Positions 2,578 to 63,072 of a stretch of 64,000 nucleotides of DNA are shown piece by piece. Within the stretch, counting starts at the first letter, position 1. Each line of letters opens with the position of its first letter. The notes beneath the pieces were generated by a model. That model ran no database searches. It saw only the letters and a list, made by a program, of their open reading frames with translations, and had not been told where the DNA came from. The DNA is from Haloterrigena alkaliphila (GTDB lineage: Archaea; Halobacteriota; Halobacteria; Halobacteriales; Natrialbaceae). The stretch is from positions 3,534,001 through 3,598,000 of the forward strand of contig NZ_CP071462.1 of NCBI RefSeq assembly GCF_017352155.2. Reading direction: 5' to 3'. Made by a program: the position numbers and the translations under genes.

Positions 2578-2720
2578 GGGGAGGGCTCCGAACCACGGAA
2601 ATCCCTGCGGGCTTTCCCGCCTCACGCTCGCTGGCGCTCGCGTGAGACCTACGGGTTCTCCGCCTCCCCAGGCATTTTCGGCGTTGCCACTCGTCTCCGA
2701 CTCGTGGCGTCTTTGAAAAG
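2578..2720 (-). repeat. tRNA-Met tail-flanked structured element
   Basis: This is the region 3' of tRNA-Met, read on the minus strand. It holds an imperfect stem with TTTTC/GAAAA and GCCAC/GTGGC arms (2675-2719). Next is an inverted degenerate copy of the tRNA tail (2653-2674, plus strand GGGTTC...CTCCCC.GGCA). Then come a 7-bp hairpin CTCACGC/GCGTGAG (2621-2646) and a GCGGG-CTTT-CCCGC hairpin (2607-2620). It ends with a 17-bp direct copy of the tRNA 3' part (2578-2594, identical to 2726-2742). It is the most degenerate of three such elements in the window and contains no gene. Confidence 0.55.
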
Positions 2721-2871
2721 TGCCCGGGGAGGGCTCCGAACCCTCGATCTCCGCATGTCCCAGGTTCGAGGCTCGGCAGTCCTCTACGGGACACGGAGGC
2801 TTCCAAGGCGTACCGCACCGAATCTCTGAACCCTATGAGTGCGGCGCTATGTCCAGCTAAGCCACCCGGGC
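2721..2871 (-). tRNA. tRNA-Met(CAT), elongator type, with intron
   Basis: The acceptor stem is GCCCGGG (2865-2871) pairing with CCCGGGC (2722-2728), with discriminator A at 2721. The T-arm reads GAGGG-TTCGGAG-CCCTC. The anticodon stem is CCGCA/TGCGG around a CTCATA-A loop, so the anticodon is CAT. Exon 1 is 2834-2871 and exon 2 is 2721-2756. They are separated by a 77-base intron (2757-2833) after position 37, the standard archaeal splice site cut by the bulge-helix-bulge endonuclease. An intron-bearing elongator tRNA-Met is typical of haloarchaea. CCA is not encoded. Confidence 0.93.
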
Positions 2872-4747: not shown

Positions 4748-5473
4748 ATGTCGGTTCCGCCGGTACGGACGCGAACGCTCGTCGGGCTGGTCGCGATCGG
4801 GGCGATCCTCACGACGGGCGTGCTTCTGTCACCCTCGACGCTGCTCGGGGCCCTCGAGTCGGCGTCGGTCGACCCGTACCTGTTCGGCGTCCTCGTGGCC
4901 TGTCTCTACCTCCTGCGACCGCTGTTCGCCCTGCCGACGACGCCGCTGGCCGTCGTCGTCGGCTACGGCTACGGCGTCGCGGTCGGCGTTCCGATCGCGC
5001 TCGTCGGCGTCGTGACGACGGTCGTTCCCGTGTTCCTCGCCGCTCGCTGGCTCGTCGGCGATCCGGAAAAAGCGTGTTCGCCGGCCCAACCCGGCCGAAT
5101 TCGCTCGCTGCTCGAGCGCGCCCGGACCGTCGTCGAGCGCTACTACGAGACGGCGGGCCCCCTCCGGGGCGTCGTGGCCTCGCGGCTCGCGCCGATCCCG
5201 TCGGACGTGGCGACGTGTGCGGCGGCCGTCAGCGGCGTTCGCCTCCGCCACCTCGTCCTCGGCACGGCGGTCGGCGAACTCCCGTGGACGGTCGCGGCGG
5301 TCGTCGTCGGCGCGTCGGCGGCGACCGTGCGGACCGACGGCCTCGGCGGCGTCGGCACCGCGCTGTCGCTGGCTTGTCTCGTCGCCGCACTGGCGCTGTT
5401 GGCCGTCCCCGCGTATCGCGCCGCGCGGACGCGACGGGGCGCCCGGACCGCTCCCGGCGCGGCGGACGACTAG
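4748..5473 (+). CDS. TVP38/TMEM64 (SNARE-associated/DedA-like) membrane protein
   Basis: The protein has 241 residues with about six hydrophobic segments. The family core is visible: RPLFALPTTPLAVVVGYGYG, then a charged loop around ERARTVVERYYETAGP and the conserved VASRLAPIPSDVATCAAAVSG segment, which is the DedA/TVP38 re-entrant signature. These proteins are implicated in lipid scrambling or flippase functions in the cytoplasmic membrane. I chose ATG 4748 over an upstream in-frame ATG at 4688 because the 4688-4747 segment is polar and arginine-rich. The neighbours do not suggest a specific substrate. Confidence 0.8.
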   Translation: MSVPPVRTRTLVGLVAIGAILTTGVLLSPSTLLGALESASVDPYLFGVLVACLYLLRPLFALPTTPLAVVVGYGYGVAVGVPIALVGVVTTVVPVFLAARWLVGDPEKACSPAQPGRIRSLLERARTVVERYYETAGPLRGVVASRLAPIPSDVATCAAAVSGVRLRHLVLGTAVGELPWTVAAVVVGASAATVRTDGLGGVGTALSLACLVAALALLAVPAYRAARTRRGARTAPGAADD

Positions 5474-5486
5474 CGCCGTTCGCCGC

Positions 5487-6011
5487 TCAGCGTTCGTCCG
5501 CGTCGCCGACCAGCGAGTCGCTCAGTTCCTTGAGATCGTCTTCCAGTTGCTGGTAGGCCTCGGTGTCCTCGAGGTCGTCGAGCGAGTGTTCGTCCTCGAG
5601 GGTCTCCATCTTGTTCGAGAGCGCGGTGAGTTCCCGCCGGCCGTCGTCGTTGTAGCGGGCCTGCACGCGGAGGTTCTCGATGATTCGCGTCAGTTGGGCG
5701 CGAGTCACCGGTTTGGTGACGTAATCGTCGATGTCCAGTTCCACGATGTCGAGTCCCGGATCGACCGCGGTGACCATGATCACCCAGCAGTCGTGGCCCG
5801 CGGCCCGAATCTGGTTGAGGACTTCGTCGCCGGTCACGTCGGGCATGTGTCGGTCGAGCAGGACGACGTCGACGGCGTCGCTCATCGCCTCGAGCGCCGA
5901 GCGCCCGTCGTAGGCGGTCAGGACGTCGTAATCCTCGTTCACCCACGTCGCGTAGAGGTCGGTGAGTTCGCGCTCGTCGTCGACGACGAGGATCGTCGGT
6001 TGCGTAGACAT
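5487..6011 (-). CDS. Response regulator with HalX domain
   Basis: The protein has 174 residues. The receiver domain (about 5-118) has the acidic pair VVDDE, the phosphoacceptor Asp in VVLLDRHMP, the T of VTAVDPG and the lysine of DYVTKPV. The C-terminal about 55 residues (ARYNDDGRRELTALSNKME and following heptads ending KELSDSL) match HalX, a haloarchaeal helical domain thought to act in DNA binding or output. No histidine kinase is adjacent, so its partner is unknown. It is a cytoplasmic two-component output protein. Confidence 0.88.
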   Translation of the reverse strand: MSTQPTILVVDDERELTDLYATWVNEDYDVLTAYDGRSALEAMSDAVDVVLLDRHMPDVTGDEVLNQIRAAGHDCWVIMVTAVDPGLDIVELDIDDYVTKPVTRAQLTRIIENLRVQARYNDDGRRELTALSNKMETLEDEHSLDDLEDTEAYQQLEDDLKELSDSLVGDADER

Positions 6012-6122
6012 ACAGAGTACTTGTTCGAGACGACAGCACCTCGTCTTGTAGCAGTTCCGGGCGACTCACGCCTCGAGTCGGGCGCTGAGTGACGTTGTGG
6101 CCCCTCTCGCCGCTCGAACCGA

Positions 6123-6299
6123 CTACAGGAAGGGATCGGAACAGTCGACGATGACCCCGTGTTGGGGGCAGACGTACTTGCAGTGGCGTTTGAACAGCGC
6201 CGCCTCGCAGTACGGACAGGCCGGGCCGCCGCTCGCGGCGTCGACACGCGCGTCCCGTCCGTTCGACCCGGCCCCGCGTTCCTCGTCGTCGGCAGCCAT
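6123..6299 (-). CDS. Small zinc-finger protein (HVO_2523-like)
   Basis: The protein has 58 residues from the ATG at 6297-6299. The acidic, flexible N-terminus is followed by a four-cysteine knuckle: CPYCEAALFKRHCKYVCPQHG, ending VDCSDPFL. This resembles a family of tiny haloarchaeal zinc-finger proteins annotated by the H. volcanii locus HVO_2523; the name is recalled, not searched. It is probably cytoplasmic and nucleic-acid binding. A longer frame extends upstream but crosses the MFS promoter, so I use the internal start. Confidence 0.7.
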   Translation of the reverse strand: MAADDEERGAGSNGRDARVDAASGGPACPYCEAALFKRHCKYVCPQHGVIVDCSDPFL

Positions 6300-6429
6300 A
6301 CTCCTCGGTACCGGCCGAACCCTGCTAAGTGTTGGTGGTCGTCCGCGAGAGGTGCCCGCCGCCCGCGGAGGCGGTCCGGGCCGGATCCGAACTCGATCAT
6401 TTATACGGACGCGCTCGAGTGTGGATTCC

Positions 6430-7737
6430 ATGTCCGATCGATGGCTATACGCGTGGGGGCTGGGATCCGCCGCGTTCGGCGGCGTCTCCGTGATCGTTCC
6501 GCTGTACGTCGTCTCGCTCGGAGCCGATCCGTTCACGCTCGGGATCCTCGCCGCGGCGGCCGCGTTCGCGGGCGTTCCCGGCGCGCTGGCGTTCGGCGGG
6601 CTCGCGGACAGGACGGGGAAGCGACGGATGTTCGTCGTCGCCGCGCTCTCACTCGTCGCCGTGATGTCCGTCGCGATCCCCTTTACGCGGTCGATCGCGG
6701 TCGTGATCGCAGCCAACGCGACCGTCTGGTTCGCTTCCGCCGCCGTCCTGCCGATCCTGACCCTGCTGGCGGTCGCCGACGCTCCCGACGCGCAGTGGAG
6801 CGAGCGGATCGCCCGGCTCAACACCTATCAGGGGGTCGGCTGGGCGCTGGGACTCCTCGCGGGCACGGTCTGGACCGTCGGCGCCGCGCGGGTCCTCGGT
6901 CCGGTCGCGGCCCAGCGGGGGTTCCTGCTGGCATGCGCCGCCTGTGCCGCTCTGAGCTGTCTCGCGTCCGTTCGAACGCTCCCCCCGGACCCCGAACCGG
7001 GCGCGGAACCGGAACCGCGGAAGCTCCGGCGCGCGATGCGTCGTGCGGGTCGGTTCAACGTCCGCGGCGTCACGTTCCCGTTCTCCCCGGTGCGCGTCGA
7101 CCCGCGCGGACTCCATCCGCGCCGCGTCGCCCACCGTTTCACGCCGGAACTGACGCTGTACTTCCTCGCGATCGTGCTCGTCTTCGCCGGTTCCGCGGCC
7201 TTCTTCGCCCCGCTGCCCGCCTTTCTCGCCGAACTCGGCTACGGCTCCGACGGAATCTTCGCCCTCTACCTCCTCTCGAGCGTCGCGTCGGCCGTCTGTT
7301 TCGATCGCGTGGGTCGACTCGCCGCGGCCCACGACGCCCGCCTCGTGCAGGTCGCCGGCCTGCTCGGCCGGGCGATCGGACTGCCGGCCGCCGCCGTCGT
7401 CGGGACCGCTCTCGGCGTGACCCGCGTCGGCCTCGTCGGCACGACGGTCGTCTTCGCCGTAATCGGGATTACGTGGGCCGTCATCTCCGTGACGACCGGA
7501 ACGATCGTCACCCAGCTCGCGCCGGCGGGCGTCCGCGGCGAGGCGCTCGGCGTCTACAGCGCGCTCACGGCCTTCGCGGGCGGCGTCGGCAGCGTCGCCG
7601 GCGGCTGGCTCGCCGCCTCGAGTTACGCGGTGGCGTTCACCGTCGCCGGCGGTCTGGTCCTCGCGGGCGCCGGCGTCGTGCTCGCGCTGTGGCGACGGAC
7701 GATAACCGTCGCCGAACCGGACCGGTCGGTCGCTTGA
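6430..7737 (+). CDS. MFS transporter
   Basis: The protein has 435 residues with twelve predicted membrane segments in two halves. The MFS loop 2-3 signature is seen as GGLADRTGKRRMF after the second helix. A central arginine-rich loop of about 60 residues (REL around 190-240) separates the halves. A C-terminal half repeat has TQLAPAGVRGEALGVYSALTA. The substrate cannot be told from sequence; drug or sugar efflux are both possible. The start ATG 6430 follows an AT-rich TTTATACGG element at about 6400, consistent with a short leader. Confidence 0.85.
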   Translation: MSDRWLYAWGLGSAAFGGVSVIVPLYVVSLGADPFTLGILAAAAAFAGVPGALAFGGLADRTGKRRMFVVAALSLVAVMSVAIPFTRSIAVVIAANATVWFASAAVLPILTLLAVADAPDAQWSERIARLNTYQGVGWALGLLAGTVWTVGAARVLGPVAAQRGFLLACAACAALSCLASVRTLPPDPEPGAEPEPRKLRRAMRRAGRFNVRGVTFPFSPVRVDPRGLHPRRVAHRFTPELTLYFLAIVLVFAGSAAFFAPLPAFLAELGYGSDGIFALYLLSSVASAVCFDRVGRLAAAHDARLVQVAGLLGRAIGLPAAAVVGTALGVTRVGLVGTTVVFAVIGITWAVISVTTGTIVTQLAPAGVRGEALGVYSALTAFAGGVGSVAGGWLAASSYAVAFTVAGGLVLAGAGVVLALWRRTITVAEPDRSVA

Positions 7738-7758
7738 TCGAGTGTTATCGCTTCCAGT

Positions 7759-8649
7759 TCAGAGCCGAGAGTTGATGACTTCTGGAAGCTTTTCACGTTT
7801 CTTCCAGGGGAGATGCACGTCGCACGGCAACTCTGATCCAACTACGAGATACGTGTAGTCGTGCCTGTCCATGAATTCATTAGCCTTCGTTTCGTCGTTC
7901 TCCCAGACCATTCCTTTGACTTCGATTACGATATCTTCAACGACGAAATCCGGTGTGTACGTACGTTCACTCAATTCGAAGGACAGATCTTCGTAGGTAT
8001 AGTCGAATCCCGCGTCATGTGAAATTATATCTACCGCTGCTTCCCAGCCGTTCCTGACGATATTTCGAGTTTTGATAACTTGTCTCGGTCTGGATCTCCC
8101 TGGTACCTGCCCCCTCAGTGCCTCGCTAAGCTTCTGAAGTTGTACTTCAGACCACTCGTATCCATACAGGGGATGGTCTTCTCCCGTTCGTCCGTACATC
8201 GAGTGTTTCGTTGGATCCTCTTCGTACGTTTCTTTCAACGACTTCGAGAGTTTCTCACGGCTCTCCTCGTCCAGTTCGAACGAGACACCGTATCGGGGAT
8301 GATTCTCGCCGGTAACTCCGTACCAGGGATTCTGTTCGCCCTGTAATGACTCGCTGATTTTCTGTCGCGTTTCTTCGGAAACTTCGTGTCCTTTCAGCGA
8401 TTCGCTGATTTTTCGTTTTGTCTTTTCCGGCATCTCCCTCCCAGAGGATGCCTCTCCGATTTTTCGCTTTGCTTCTTCCGACATCTCGCGTCCTTTCATC
8501 GGATGGTTTTCGCCAGAGATGAGATCACGACCTAACTCCACCTGTGTTCCAGTACTTTTCTCACAGTACCTTACTAAATGAACTCCAATTCCGTACTCAT
8601 TCTTAAAACCGGTCCGTCCACAGGCCGGACATTCCTCTATAGATTCCAT
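7759..8649 (-). CDS. NUMOD3-repeat protein with PD-(D/E)XK nuclease domain (homing-endonuclease-like)
   Basis: The protein has 296 residues. The N-terminal zinc knuckle is CPACGRTGF followed by H and C. Residues about 45-180 carry repeated NUMOD3-type DNA-binding units (GENHPMKGREMSEEAKRKIG, MPEKTKRKISESLKG, VSEETRQKISESLQG, GENHPRYG, GEDHPLYG). The C-terminal about 100 residues are nuclease-like: GWEAAVD, then YTPDFVVEDIVIEVKG, a PD...EXK core, then FMDRHDYTYLVVG. NUMOD3 modules are typical of homing endonucleases. The gene is clearly AT-richer than its neighbours and begins 68 bases after the nrdJ stop, which suggests horizontal arrival. No intein or intron encloses it. Confidence 0.8.
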   Translation of the reverse strand: MESIEECPACGRTGFKNEYGIGVHLVRYCEKSTGTQVELGRDLISGENHPMKGREMSEEAKRKIGEASSGREMPEKTKRKISESLKGHEVSEETRQKISESLQGEQNPWYGVTGENHPRYGVSFELDEESREKLSKSLKETYEEDPTKHSMYGRTGEDHPLYGYEWSEVQLQKLSEALRGQVPGRSRPRQVIKTRNIVRNGWEAAVDIISHDAGFDYTYEDLSFELSERTYTPDFVVEDIVIEVKGMVWENDETKANEFMDRHDYTYLVVGSELPCDVHLPWKKREKLPEVINSRL

Positions 8650-16771: not shown

Positions 16772-16846
16772 GGGTTGGTGGTCTAGTCTGGTTATGACAC
16801 CTCCTTGACATGGAGGAGGCCGGCAGTTCAAATCTGCCCCAACCCA
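16772..16846 (+). tRNA. tRNA-Val(GAC)
   Basis: The acceptor GGGTTGG (16772-16778) pairs with CCAACCC (16839-16845), with discriminator A at 16846. The anticodon arm CTCC-TTGACAT-GGAG places anticodon GAC. The T-arm reads GGCAG-TTCAAAT-CTGCC. It is 75 bases, intronless, and CCA is not encoded. Its 3' end is copied 241 bases downstream (see the element at 16847-17086). Confidence 0.95.
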
Positions 16847-17086
16847 TTTCTGACGGAACAATAACCGACGAGCGATGCGTGGCGCGTTAGCGCCACGAAA
16901 TGCGAACGGCGAAGTCGTTCGAAACGCCGTCGGCGTTTCGTGATGACGAGAGAGCGAAGCTCTCTCGAACCACCGTGAGCGGAGCGAGTCGGTCGTTCCG
17001 TCAGAAATTGTCACGAGCAGATTTGAATCAGGGAGTGAAGCGAACGAAGTGAGCGGAACGACCGTGGTTCAAATCTGCCCCAACCC
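16847..17086 (+). repeat. tRNA-Val tail-flanked hairpin-array element
   Basis: This 240-base non-coding module begins at the base after the tRNA. A 13-bp perfect inverted repeat TTTCTGACGGAAC (16847-16859)/GTTCCGTCAGAAA (16995-17007) is extended inside by ACCGAC/GTCGGT. It encloses four consecutive hairpins: 16878-16897 (8 bp), 16903-16921 (8 bp, GAA triloop), 16920-16940 (9 bp, GTC triloop) and 16947-16967 (9 bp, GAA triloop). Next is an inverted T-arm copy at 17017-17029, then the word GCGAACGAAGTGAGCG (17040-17055). A 20-bp direct copy of the tRNA 3' end (17067-17086, identical to 16826-16845) closes it. Confidence 0.75.
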
Positions 17087-17370
17087 CGTCAGGAACCGCC
17101 CCCTCTATCCGACTATCACACCGCAACGCTCCCTCGAGCGAACCCGAACACTCACTCGAGTCCCGAGACGCGACGTCACGAGAACGTGACTGCTCGAGGG
17201 TGTCGAGGTGCTCGCGCGGTCGGAACACCGCGTCATCGTCCTTCAGGCACTTGTCGAGTGGCCGCGGAGTCAGGCCGTCCGTCGAGCGACGACCGGGATA
17301 TCGGCGTCCACGATTGGACGTGCGTTCCGCGCAGGAAACGCGTGATCCGATGCCACGTCATCGCCGTTGG
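17087..17370. other. Intergenic region, nothing recognised
   Basis: The stretch lies between the tRNA-Val element and the HalOD1 gene. There are a few CTCGAG-rich short repeats (CACTCGAG, GCTCGAGG) but no coding frame, RNA or clear palindrome. Confidence 0.4.
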
Positions 17371-62845: not shown

Positions 62846-63001
62846 TGCGCTGGCTGGGATTTGAACAACGCGAAGACGGTCCTGCTCGCTCACTTCGTTC
62901 GCTCACAGGCTGCGACTTCTCTCGTTCAAATCCAGTACGATTTCTCCGAACACGATTACTCGCGTTGCTACGCAACGCTCGTGATGTTGTGTTCGGAGAA
63001 A
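62846..63001 (-). repeat. tRNA-Gly tail-flanked hairpin element
   Basis: This is read on the minus strand from the base after tRNA-Gly. A 13-bp perfect inverted repeat (62989-63001 and 62941-62953, TTTCTCCGAACAC/GTGTTCGGAGAAA) encloses a 7-bp hairpin with a GTA triloop (62962-62978). Next comes an inverted T-arm copy (62924-62934), then the word GCGAACGAAGTGAGC in reverse orientation (about 62886-62904). A 21-bp direct copy of the tRNA 3' end (62846-62866, identical to 63002-63022) closes it. The module order is the same as at tRNA-Val. Confidence 0.75.
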
Positions 63002-63072
63002 TGCGCTGGCTGGGATTTGAACCCAGGTTGTGACCATGGCAAGGTCACGTGATACCACTACACTACCAGCGC
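63002..63072 (-). tRNA. tRNA-Gly(GCC)
   Basis: The acceptor GCGCTGG (63066-63072) pairs with CCAGCGC (63003-63009), with discriminator A at 63002. The anticodon arm GACCT-TGCCAT-GGTC gives anticodon GCC. The T-arm is CTGGG-TTCAAAT-CCCAG. It is 71 bases, intronless, with no encoded CCA. Confidence 0.95.

Follow-up and report, generated by a model that had tools for sequence, protein, structure and literature searches.

The structured DNA that follows tRNA-Val in Haloterrigena alkaliphila belongs to a large family of small units located directly 3' of tRNA genes. The mobility of these cassettes is well supported, and we lean, if only slightly, towards reading them as non-autonomous and site-specific, inserted at the T-loop by a recombinase that would act in trans, with a folded segment of the unit (T'-H2-T, see below) as an attachment site in the manner of attC.

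Units downstream of tRNA-Val, tRNA-Gly and tRNA-Met

Three units are found in the window, i.e. the whole stretch of 64,000 nucleotides that was analysed. The first has tRNA-Val (GAC; 16772–16846, plus strand; ARAGORN and Rfam RF00005) as its insertion target. Directly 3' of the discriminator base lies the left arm of an outer stem, H1 (TTTCTGACGGAAC, 16847–16859), which forms a perfect 13-bp inverted repeat with the right arm (GTTCCGTCAGAAA, 16995–17007). The interior of H1 (16860–16994) consists of inner hairpins and a nested double-hairpin module (CGAAGTCGTTCGAAACGCC..GGCGTTTCGTGATGACGAGAGAGC..GCTCTCTCGAACCAC); in all, the 13-bp stem encloses four hairpins of about 7–8 bp each, with the loops GTTA, GAA, GTC and GAA. 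It is followed on the same strand by T', an inverted copy of the T-arm (GCAGATTTGAAT; GCAGATTTGAA(T); 17017–17028), and by a second hairpin, H2 (CAGGGAGTGAAGCGAACGAAGTGAGCGGAACGACCGTG, 17029–17066), which has a GAA triloop and tandem G.A mismatches, contains GCGAACGAAGTGAGCG at 17040–17055, and was delimited by parsing, folding and a pair count over 38 rows. The unit ends with a direct copy of tRNA-Val positions 53–73 (17067–17087, 20 of 21 nucleotides identical), within which 17067–17086 is an exact 20-nt match to the tRNA 3' end.

The unit of tRNA-Gly (GCC; 63002–63072, minus strand; ARAGORN) follows the same order on the minus strand: H1 with a 13-bp stem (TTTCTCCGAACAC / GTGTTCGGAGAAA, 62941–63001), T' (GATTTGAAC, 62924–62932, from sequence and parsing), H2 (62867–62923, from sequence, parsing and a match to model R2) and a copy of tRNA-Gly positions 53–73 (62846–62866) that is identical at all 21 positions. 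The third target, an intron-containing tRNA-Met (2720–2871, minus strand; ARAGORN with introns), is followed by a degraded unit (2578–2719, minus strand) with H1 starting at 2719, T' at about 2669–2654 and a tail copy at about 2593–2578. The initial annotation had described this layout behind tRNA-Val and tRNA-Gly and, degraded, behind tRNA-Met, and both the sequence and ARAGORN confirm it.

The four-hairpin interior of the Val unit is unusual, most units having simple interiors. It combines H1 with the nested double-hairpin module, which also occurs in Phe and Met units, and the odd hairpin array of the Val unit is explained by the presence of this module. The module has a constant word, GTTTCGTGATGACGA, and covarying stems, and was observed at several tRNAs (16905–16970 of the window, L015, L248 and L249); that of the Phe unit (L015) is missing in the orthologue of Haloterrigena sp. 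KLK7 (G003). The hairpin word GCGARCGNAGYGAGC is not confined to tRNAs: it has 66 genomic sites compared with 8 for the reversed control, and most of the 66 are not at tRNAs. An H2-like hairpin (GGAAGTCGCAGCCCGCGAACGAAGTGAGCAGG..CGTCTTCC) was also seen outside tRNA loci, in another kind of extragenic repeat that is long and rich in hairpins (L390, G000:C1:958766–958832; L391, 2425159–2425224).

Distribution of the units

The neighbourhoods of 46 tRNA-family matches were compared throughout the 4.27-Mb host genome, whose trpD has its closest named GTDB counterpart in Haloterrigena salina (94%), in keeping with a place in Natrialbaceae. For 24 of the 46 tRNA genes, the gene's own 21-nt tail recurs within 1.4 kb downstream with at most 4 mismatches, while the upstream control gave 1 (an overlapping Asp repeat) and permuted tails averaged 0.97 and never exceeded 4. 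The recurrence of tails downstream of tRNAs, which the initial annotation had suggested testing, is far above chance. Parsing revealed a common architecture: the tRNA, H1 (a stem-loop beginning 0–4 nt 3' of the discriminator), a spacer, T' (an inverted copy of the tRNA's own T-arm), H2, and a copy of positions 53–73 of that tRNA. The units are 80–220 nt long and free of genes in nearly all cases, as had been noted for the first ones. By our count, about 31 of about 47 tRNA genes bear a unit, which leaves roughly one third of the tRNAs without; the layout is that of most tRNAs. A covariance model, R1, matches the genome 38 times and always at a tRNA gene, a tally that includes units behind elements of 54 kb and 19 kb inserted in tRNAs. 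Its seeming exceptions were all resolved: one tRNA had been missed by the tRNA search, one unit is preceded by a 30-nt tRNA tail, and others are displaced by tRNA-integrated elements of 54 kb and 19.3 kb.

Beyond this genome, 278 of 293 Halobacteriales genomes, in 82 of 87 genera, are R1-positive, and among 148 genomes sampled across the phylum the positives are confined to Halobacteriales. In many of the sampled haloarchaeal genomes units are found at a dozen or more tRNA genes, the R1 numbers per genome being minima (at least this many, with matches scored up to 12). Only the tRNA itself reaches the threshold in Rfam 15, where the units match no family. A phage collection contained no record with a stretch similar to the units, and a plasmid collection gave five weak matches, on large haloarchaeal plasmids. 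A search of IMG/VR with the pattern T'-spacer-T returned no haloarchaeal case; it yielded GC-rich contigs with an inverted tRNA 3' part, as well as AT-rich coding repeats. In the former (L279, L282, L283, L284, L286 and L287, viral contigs), the 3' part of a tRNA is duplicated inversely across a short loop (GGATTTGAACC..GGTTCAAATCC), which is perhaps an attachment site of another kind. The open-access literature that was searched yielded no description of the units. The available part of a review on archaeal tyrosine recombinases covers integration into tRNA genes and SNJ2-type elements, and holds nothing resembling the units (PMC8371274). Overall, the cassettes look like a widespread mobile element, with no name or enzyme found for the family.

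A 54-kb element (L158/L174–L176, tRNA at 2569144) and a 19.3-kb element (L160, tRNA at 1647835), both with cores of 14–15 nt and an integrase near the ends, sit between a tRNA and its unit. The only gene-bearing cassette seen among the loci read is in a tRNA-His array (L344, G223:C2): its third segment, 929 bp long, has an H1-like start, then a gene of the metallo-beta-lactamase fold (PF12706), then T'-H2-tail. Another gene of this fold (PF00753) lies between a first unit and a 30-nt tRNA tail, itself followed by a second unit (L005, G000:C1, about 2722.8–2724.5 kb). Reading frames with a repeated motif, which look like a CRISPR array, lie downstream of a tRNA-Lys that is accompanied by two units and by a gene for a tyrosine recombinase (L338, about 5200–8230; G000:C1, about 1155.9–1158.9 kb). 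Units could be imagined as relics or miniatures of bigger elements that integrate into tRNA genes, for instance proviruses of the SNJ2 type, with H1 as the left end, H2 as the right end and the interior lost. Both the His array segment and the large elements in tRNA genes of this genome, which have an integrase close to their ends and hairpins close to their cores, would suit such an origin. We nevertheless judge it improbable: the large elements have cores of about 14–15 nt, a site between tRNA and unit, and right ends without T'-H2-T; the units are uniform over 82 genera and numerous types of tRNA, as products of separate decay events would not be; and the phage collection has no similar stretch. 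Intact larger integrative elements do not explain the units, and the other two outcomes that the initial annotation had named as contrary to its view did not appear either, as most tRNAs have the layout and the stems covary.

Insertion next to the tRNA and growth of arrays

Orthologous tRNA loci were compared with Haloterrigena sp. KLK7 (41 loci) and with another congener, G002 (23 loci), and unit content often differs between them. At L006, a 142-nt unit is present in H. alkaliphila and absent from both of these relatives, in which the flanks are continuous at the tRNA end; this is a precise empty site, and a further likely one is seen when tRNA-Val of Natronorubrum halalkaliphilum is compared with G002. 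Together with the duplicated tail, the empty site bears out the earlier proposal of site-specific integration at the tRNA 3' end, for which empty sites in relatives had been suggested as a check. The loci with several units show where additions occur. At L012 the second unit of H. alkaliphila is the first unit of KLK7, and its own first unit is extra and tRNA-proximal; the extra proximal unit is in KLK7 at L043 and in the congener other than KLK7 at L027. Alignment coordinates make proximal addition probable at L010 and L017 too, and no clear case of distal addition was found among the compared orthologous loci. Tail copies also tend to decay distally. New units insert beside the tRNA, and older ones are pushed outward. 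Arrays elsewhere comprise three to five units, some identical to the base; examples are a tRNA-Phe followed by three copies of 101 bp and a tRNA-Ser followed by a pair that is repeated. Recombination between tails may be an additional source of such identical tandem copies.

Relation between the units and their tRNAs

T' is specific to the tRNA that it follows. Outside the conserved core, the agreement of T' with its own tRNA is 3.35 of 6, compared with 2.50 after permutation (1000 permutations, maximum 2.81), and T' also reflects rare variants of the T-loop. Differences between the proximal and the distal copy within positions 54–64 allow the two to be told apart: T' agrees with the former in 30 cases and with the latter in 7. 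T' therefore tracks the tRNA and not the decaying distal copy, which indicates that pairing between T' and T is not maintained after insertion; this speaks against an RNA hairpin that is kept up and favours a role at insertion.

The hairpins also follow the type of tRNA across genomes. In 50 of 121 cases, the closest H1 from a different genome follows a tRNA of matching type (4.8 expected), and for H2 this is so in 33 of 120 (4.7 expected); at the Val locus, sequence comparison identifies a homologous H1 in Haloterrigena salina and in other genera. The tRNA-His unit of H. alkaliphila recurs over its full length at 86–90% identity in five other genera, the identity of the tRNA being directly confirmed in G251 and in related loci of G185, G216 and G223, and no unit was detected at the orthologous tRNA-His of KLK7. 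As judged from sequence comparison, the His pattern fits transfer of tRNA-specific cassettes between species.

Probable folding of the sense strand

The stems covary, as the initial annotation had suggested checking. In an alignment of 16 units, two-sided compensatory changes are present at 12 of 19 pairs. For 38 T'-H2-T sequences folded into a structure of 15 pairs, 94.6% of the cells are paired (81.1% when shuffled) and the covariation is 0.370 against 0.156, a value that none of 500 shuffles reached and that is destroyed by sliding the partners. The covariation of helix 1 follows in part from T' copying the tRNA, from which helices 2 and 3 are free. Folds of the units are predicted to be stable, with a mean z of –3.28 compared with –0.44 for the control.

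The structure is not symmetric between the strands. Mismatches in the H1 and H2 stems, counted with the covariance model, are G.T in 58 cases against 17 for A.C and G.A in 74 against 9 for T.C, counts that lean towards G.U through the RNA prior of the model; the comparison of folds on tail-defined units is free of this bias. In that comparison, the sense strand folds better with RNA parameters for 59 of 75 H1 (p = 5e-7) and 52 of 75 H2 (p = 1e-4), and the downstream control is symmetric; DNA parameters favour the sense strand for H2, RNA parameters for both H2 and H1. H2 tips of the form RC-GNA-GY occur on the sense strand in 43 of 75 units and on the other strand in 6. The GNA triloop fold is very stable in DNA. 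Both the mismatches and the GNA loops suggest that it is the tRNA-sense strand that folds, as RNA or as single-stranded DNA; such an asymmetry of mismatches and tips would not be seen in a palindrome read purely as double-stranded DNA. The earlier view of the interior as hairpin DNA stands in that compensatory changes, asymmetric mismatches and GNA triloops all indicate folding of one strand, but an interior of four hairpins is not typical of the units. Likewise, a single-stranded intermediate agrees with the folding of one strand, while the choice of DNA over RNA is still an inference.

The bias towards the transcribed strand, the near-ubiquity in Halobacteriales and the stable predicted folds would also be expected of a functional RNA of the tRNA 3' trailer (for processing, termination or regulation) that is under selection and spreads by homologous recombination via the tRNA and the tail. 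This we regard as unlikely, considering that units are gained and lost between congeners at the same tRNA, that the complementarity of T' and T is not kept up after insertion (30 against 7), that H2 tips are mostly GNA triloops, very stable in DNA, and that about a third of the tRNAs have no unit. Hairpins on one strand and an intergenic location recall the IS200/IS605-derived or palindrome-associated transposable repeats named initially as a possible source. An exclusive tRNA target and a 21-nt duplication make such a repeat highly improbable here; the IS200/IS605 origin found no support, as these elements make no target duplication, and neither did a known palindrome-associated element.

Proposed mechanism

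In the reading towards which we lean, a recombinase acting in trans, most likely a tyrosine recombinase, would recombine the cassette with its target at the T-loop, in the region of G53/TTC. The attachment site of the cassette would be T'-H2-T in a folded, single-stranded form and the tRNA gene the double-stranded target, comparable to attC and attI, respectively. Each insertion leaves an intact tRNA gene followed by H1, T', H2 and a second copy of positions 53–73. In this reading, the tRNA would take its new 3' end from the cassette, and survival would be limited to cassettes of the same tRNA type. Both the specificity of T', with no special assumption needed, and the tRNA-specific lineages could be explained by this, since an exchange at the T-loop would spare tRNA function for same-type cassettes alone. 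It is conceivable, although we put this forward tentatively, that tRNA genes are the platforms of a haloarchaeal integron-like system, in which a dedicated recombinase inserts folded single-stranded cassettes at the T-loop of many types of tRNA and thereby builds ordered arrays.

Some observations count against this mechanism. No recombinase tied to the family was found; the genome has nine PF00589 matches, and for none of these were unit ends demonstrated on both sides. An integrase at tRNA-Lys (L010) was considered as the autonomous parent and rejected, there being no distal tail copy or right end within 20 kb. Units of 100–120 nt come close to the minimum length at which double-stranded DNA can be excised as a circle. 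Positions 53–73 of the tRNA are no more divergent where unit number differs. In two congeners, the T' behind tRNA-Gly resembles a different allele (CCCAG) and the two tails are those of the host (CCCCG), a case that target duplication fits better than tail exchange.

Target duplication is the core of another explanation, in which a transposase-like integrase inserts mobile cassettes with a 21-bp stagger and the tails are target-site duplications, as for Cas1 at CRISPR leaders and for casposons. Besides the allele mismatch in Gly, fresh copies duplicate positions 53–73 exactly, and the tRNA-proximal polarity resembles spacer addition. Such an integrase would not, however, produce T', a tRNA-specific inverted copy present in most units; the unit ends (the H1 start and ...CGTg) do not form a pair of inverted repeats, and full-length units track the tRNA type across genera. 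We consider this explanation rather unlikely.

The units document in nature that site-specific insertion has occurred repeatedly at essential genes and has left them intact. Their strand-asymmetric covariation can serve as a signature of a folded-strand intermediate, and the units offer a testable route to a recombinase. They are also a hazard for annotation, as a tail copy may be taken for the att site of a provirus or for a tRNA pseudogene.

Comparison with known systems

REP and MITE-type extragenic repeats are likewise small, gene-less, multicopy hairpins, but lack the strict tRNA 3'-end target, the 21-nt tail copy and the tandem polarity of the units. IS200/IS605 insertions make no target duplication, in contrast to the 21-nt tail copies described here. 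The 178-bp repeats of Escherichia coli tyrT (rtT RNA) are tandem units downstream of a tRNA, each with the tRNA 3' terminal sequence. They are confined to one locus and one lineage and differ in sequence, whereas the units span many tRNAs, and we know of no T'-H2-T in them.

Casposons use tRNA 3' ends, and both casposons and Cas1-mediated acquisition of CRISPR spacers involve polarised insertion with target duplication. Casposons have Cas1 and terminal inverted repeats; the units have neither, the start of H1 and the end of H2 not being inverted repeats, and inside they carry a folded module that is conserved and includes an inverted repeat specific to the tRNA. Archaeal elements that integrate into tRNA genes, those of the SNJ2 type among them, resemble the units in their use of tRNA 3' ends, in the direct copy of the tail and in occurring in the same host order (PMC8371274). 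SNJ2-type elements differ in encoding an integrase, where the units are gene-free at 80–220 nt, and in a core of about 14 bp at the acceptor end (about 14–15 nt in this genome), where the unit tails have 21 nt; the tRNA-integrating elements found here also lack T'-H2-T and are placed between the tRNA and its unit.

Integron cassettes (IntI, attC) share some features with the units and differ in others. The integron boxes are RYYYAAC and GTTRRRY, while those of the units are GTTCRANYC and its complement and are tRNA-specific; integron cassettes each carry a gene, compared with one gene-bearing segment among the loci read; and the target of the units is the tRNA gene itself, with the sense strand preferred. 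On the other hand, attC is also a folded single-strand site with complementary end boxes, an imperfect and sequence-variable hairpin and a crossover-like boundary G|TT, and the units have an imperfect hairpin in which, as the covariation indicates, structure is conserved and not sequence. As in integrons, where a tandem array grows next to a fixed site, new units are added next to the tRNA (L012, L043 and L027).
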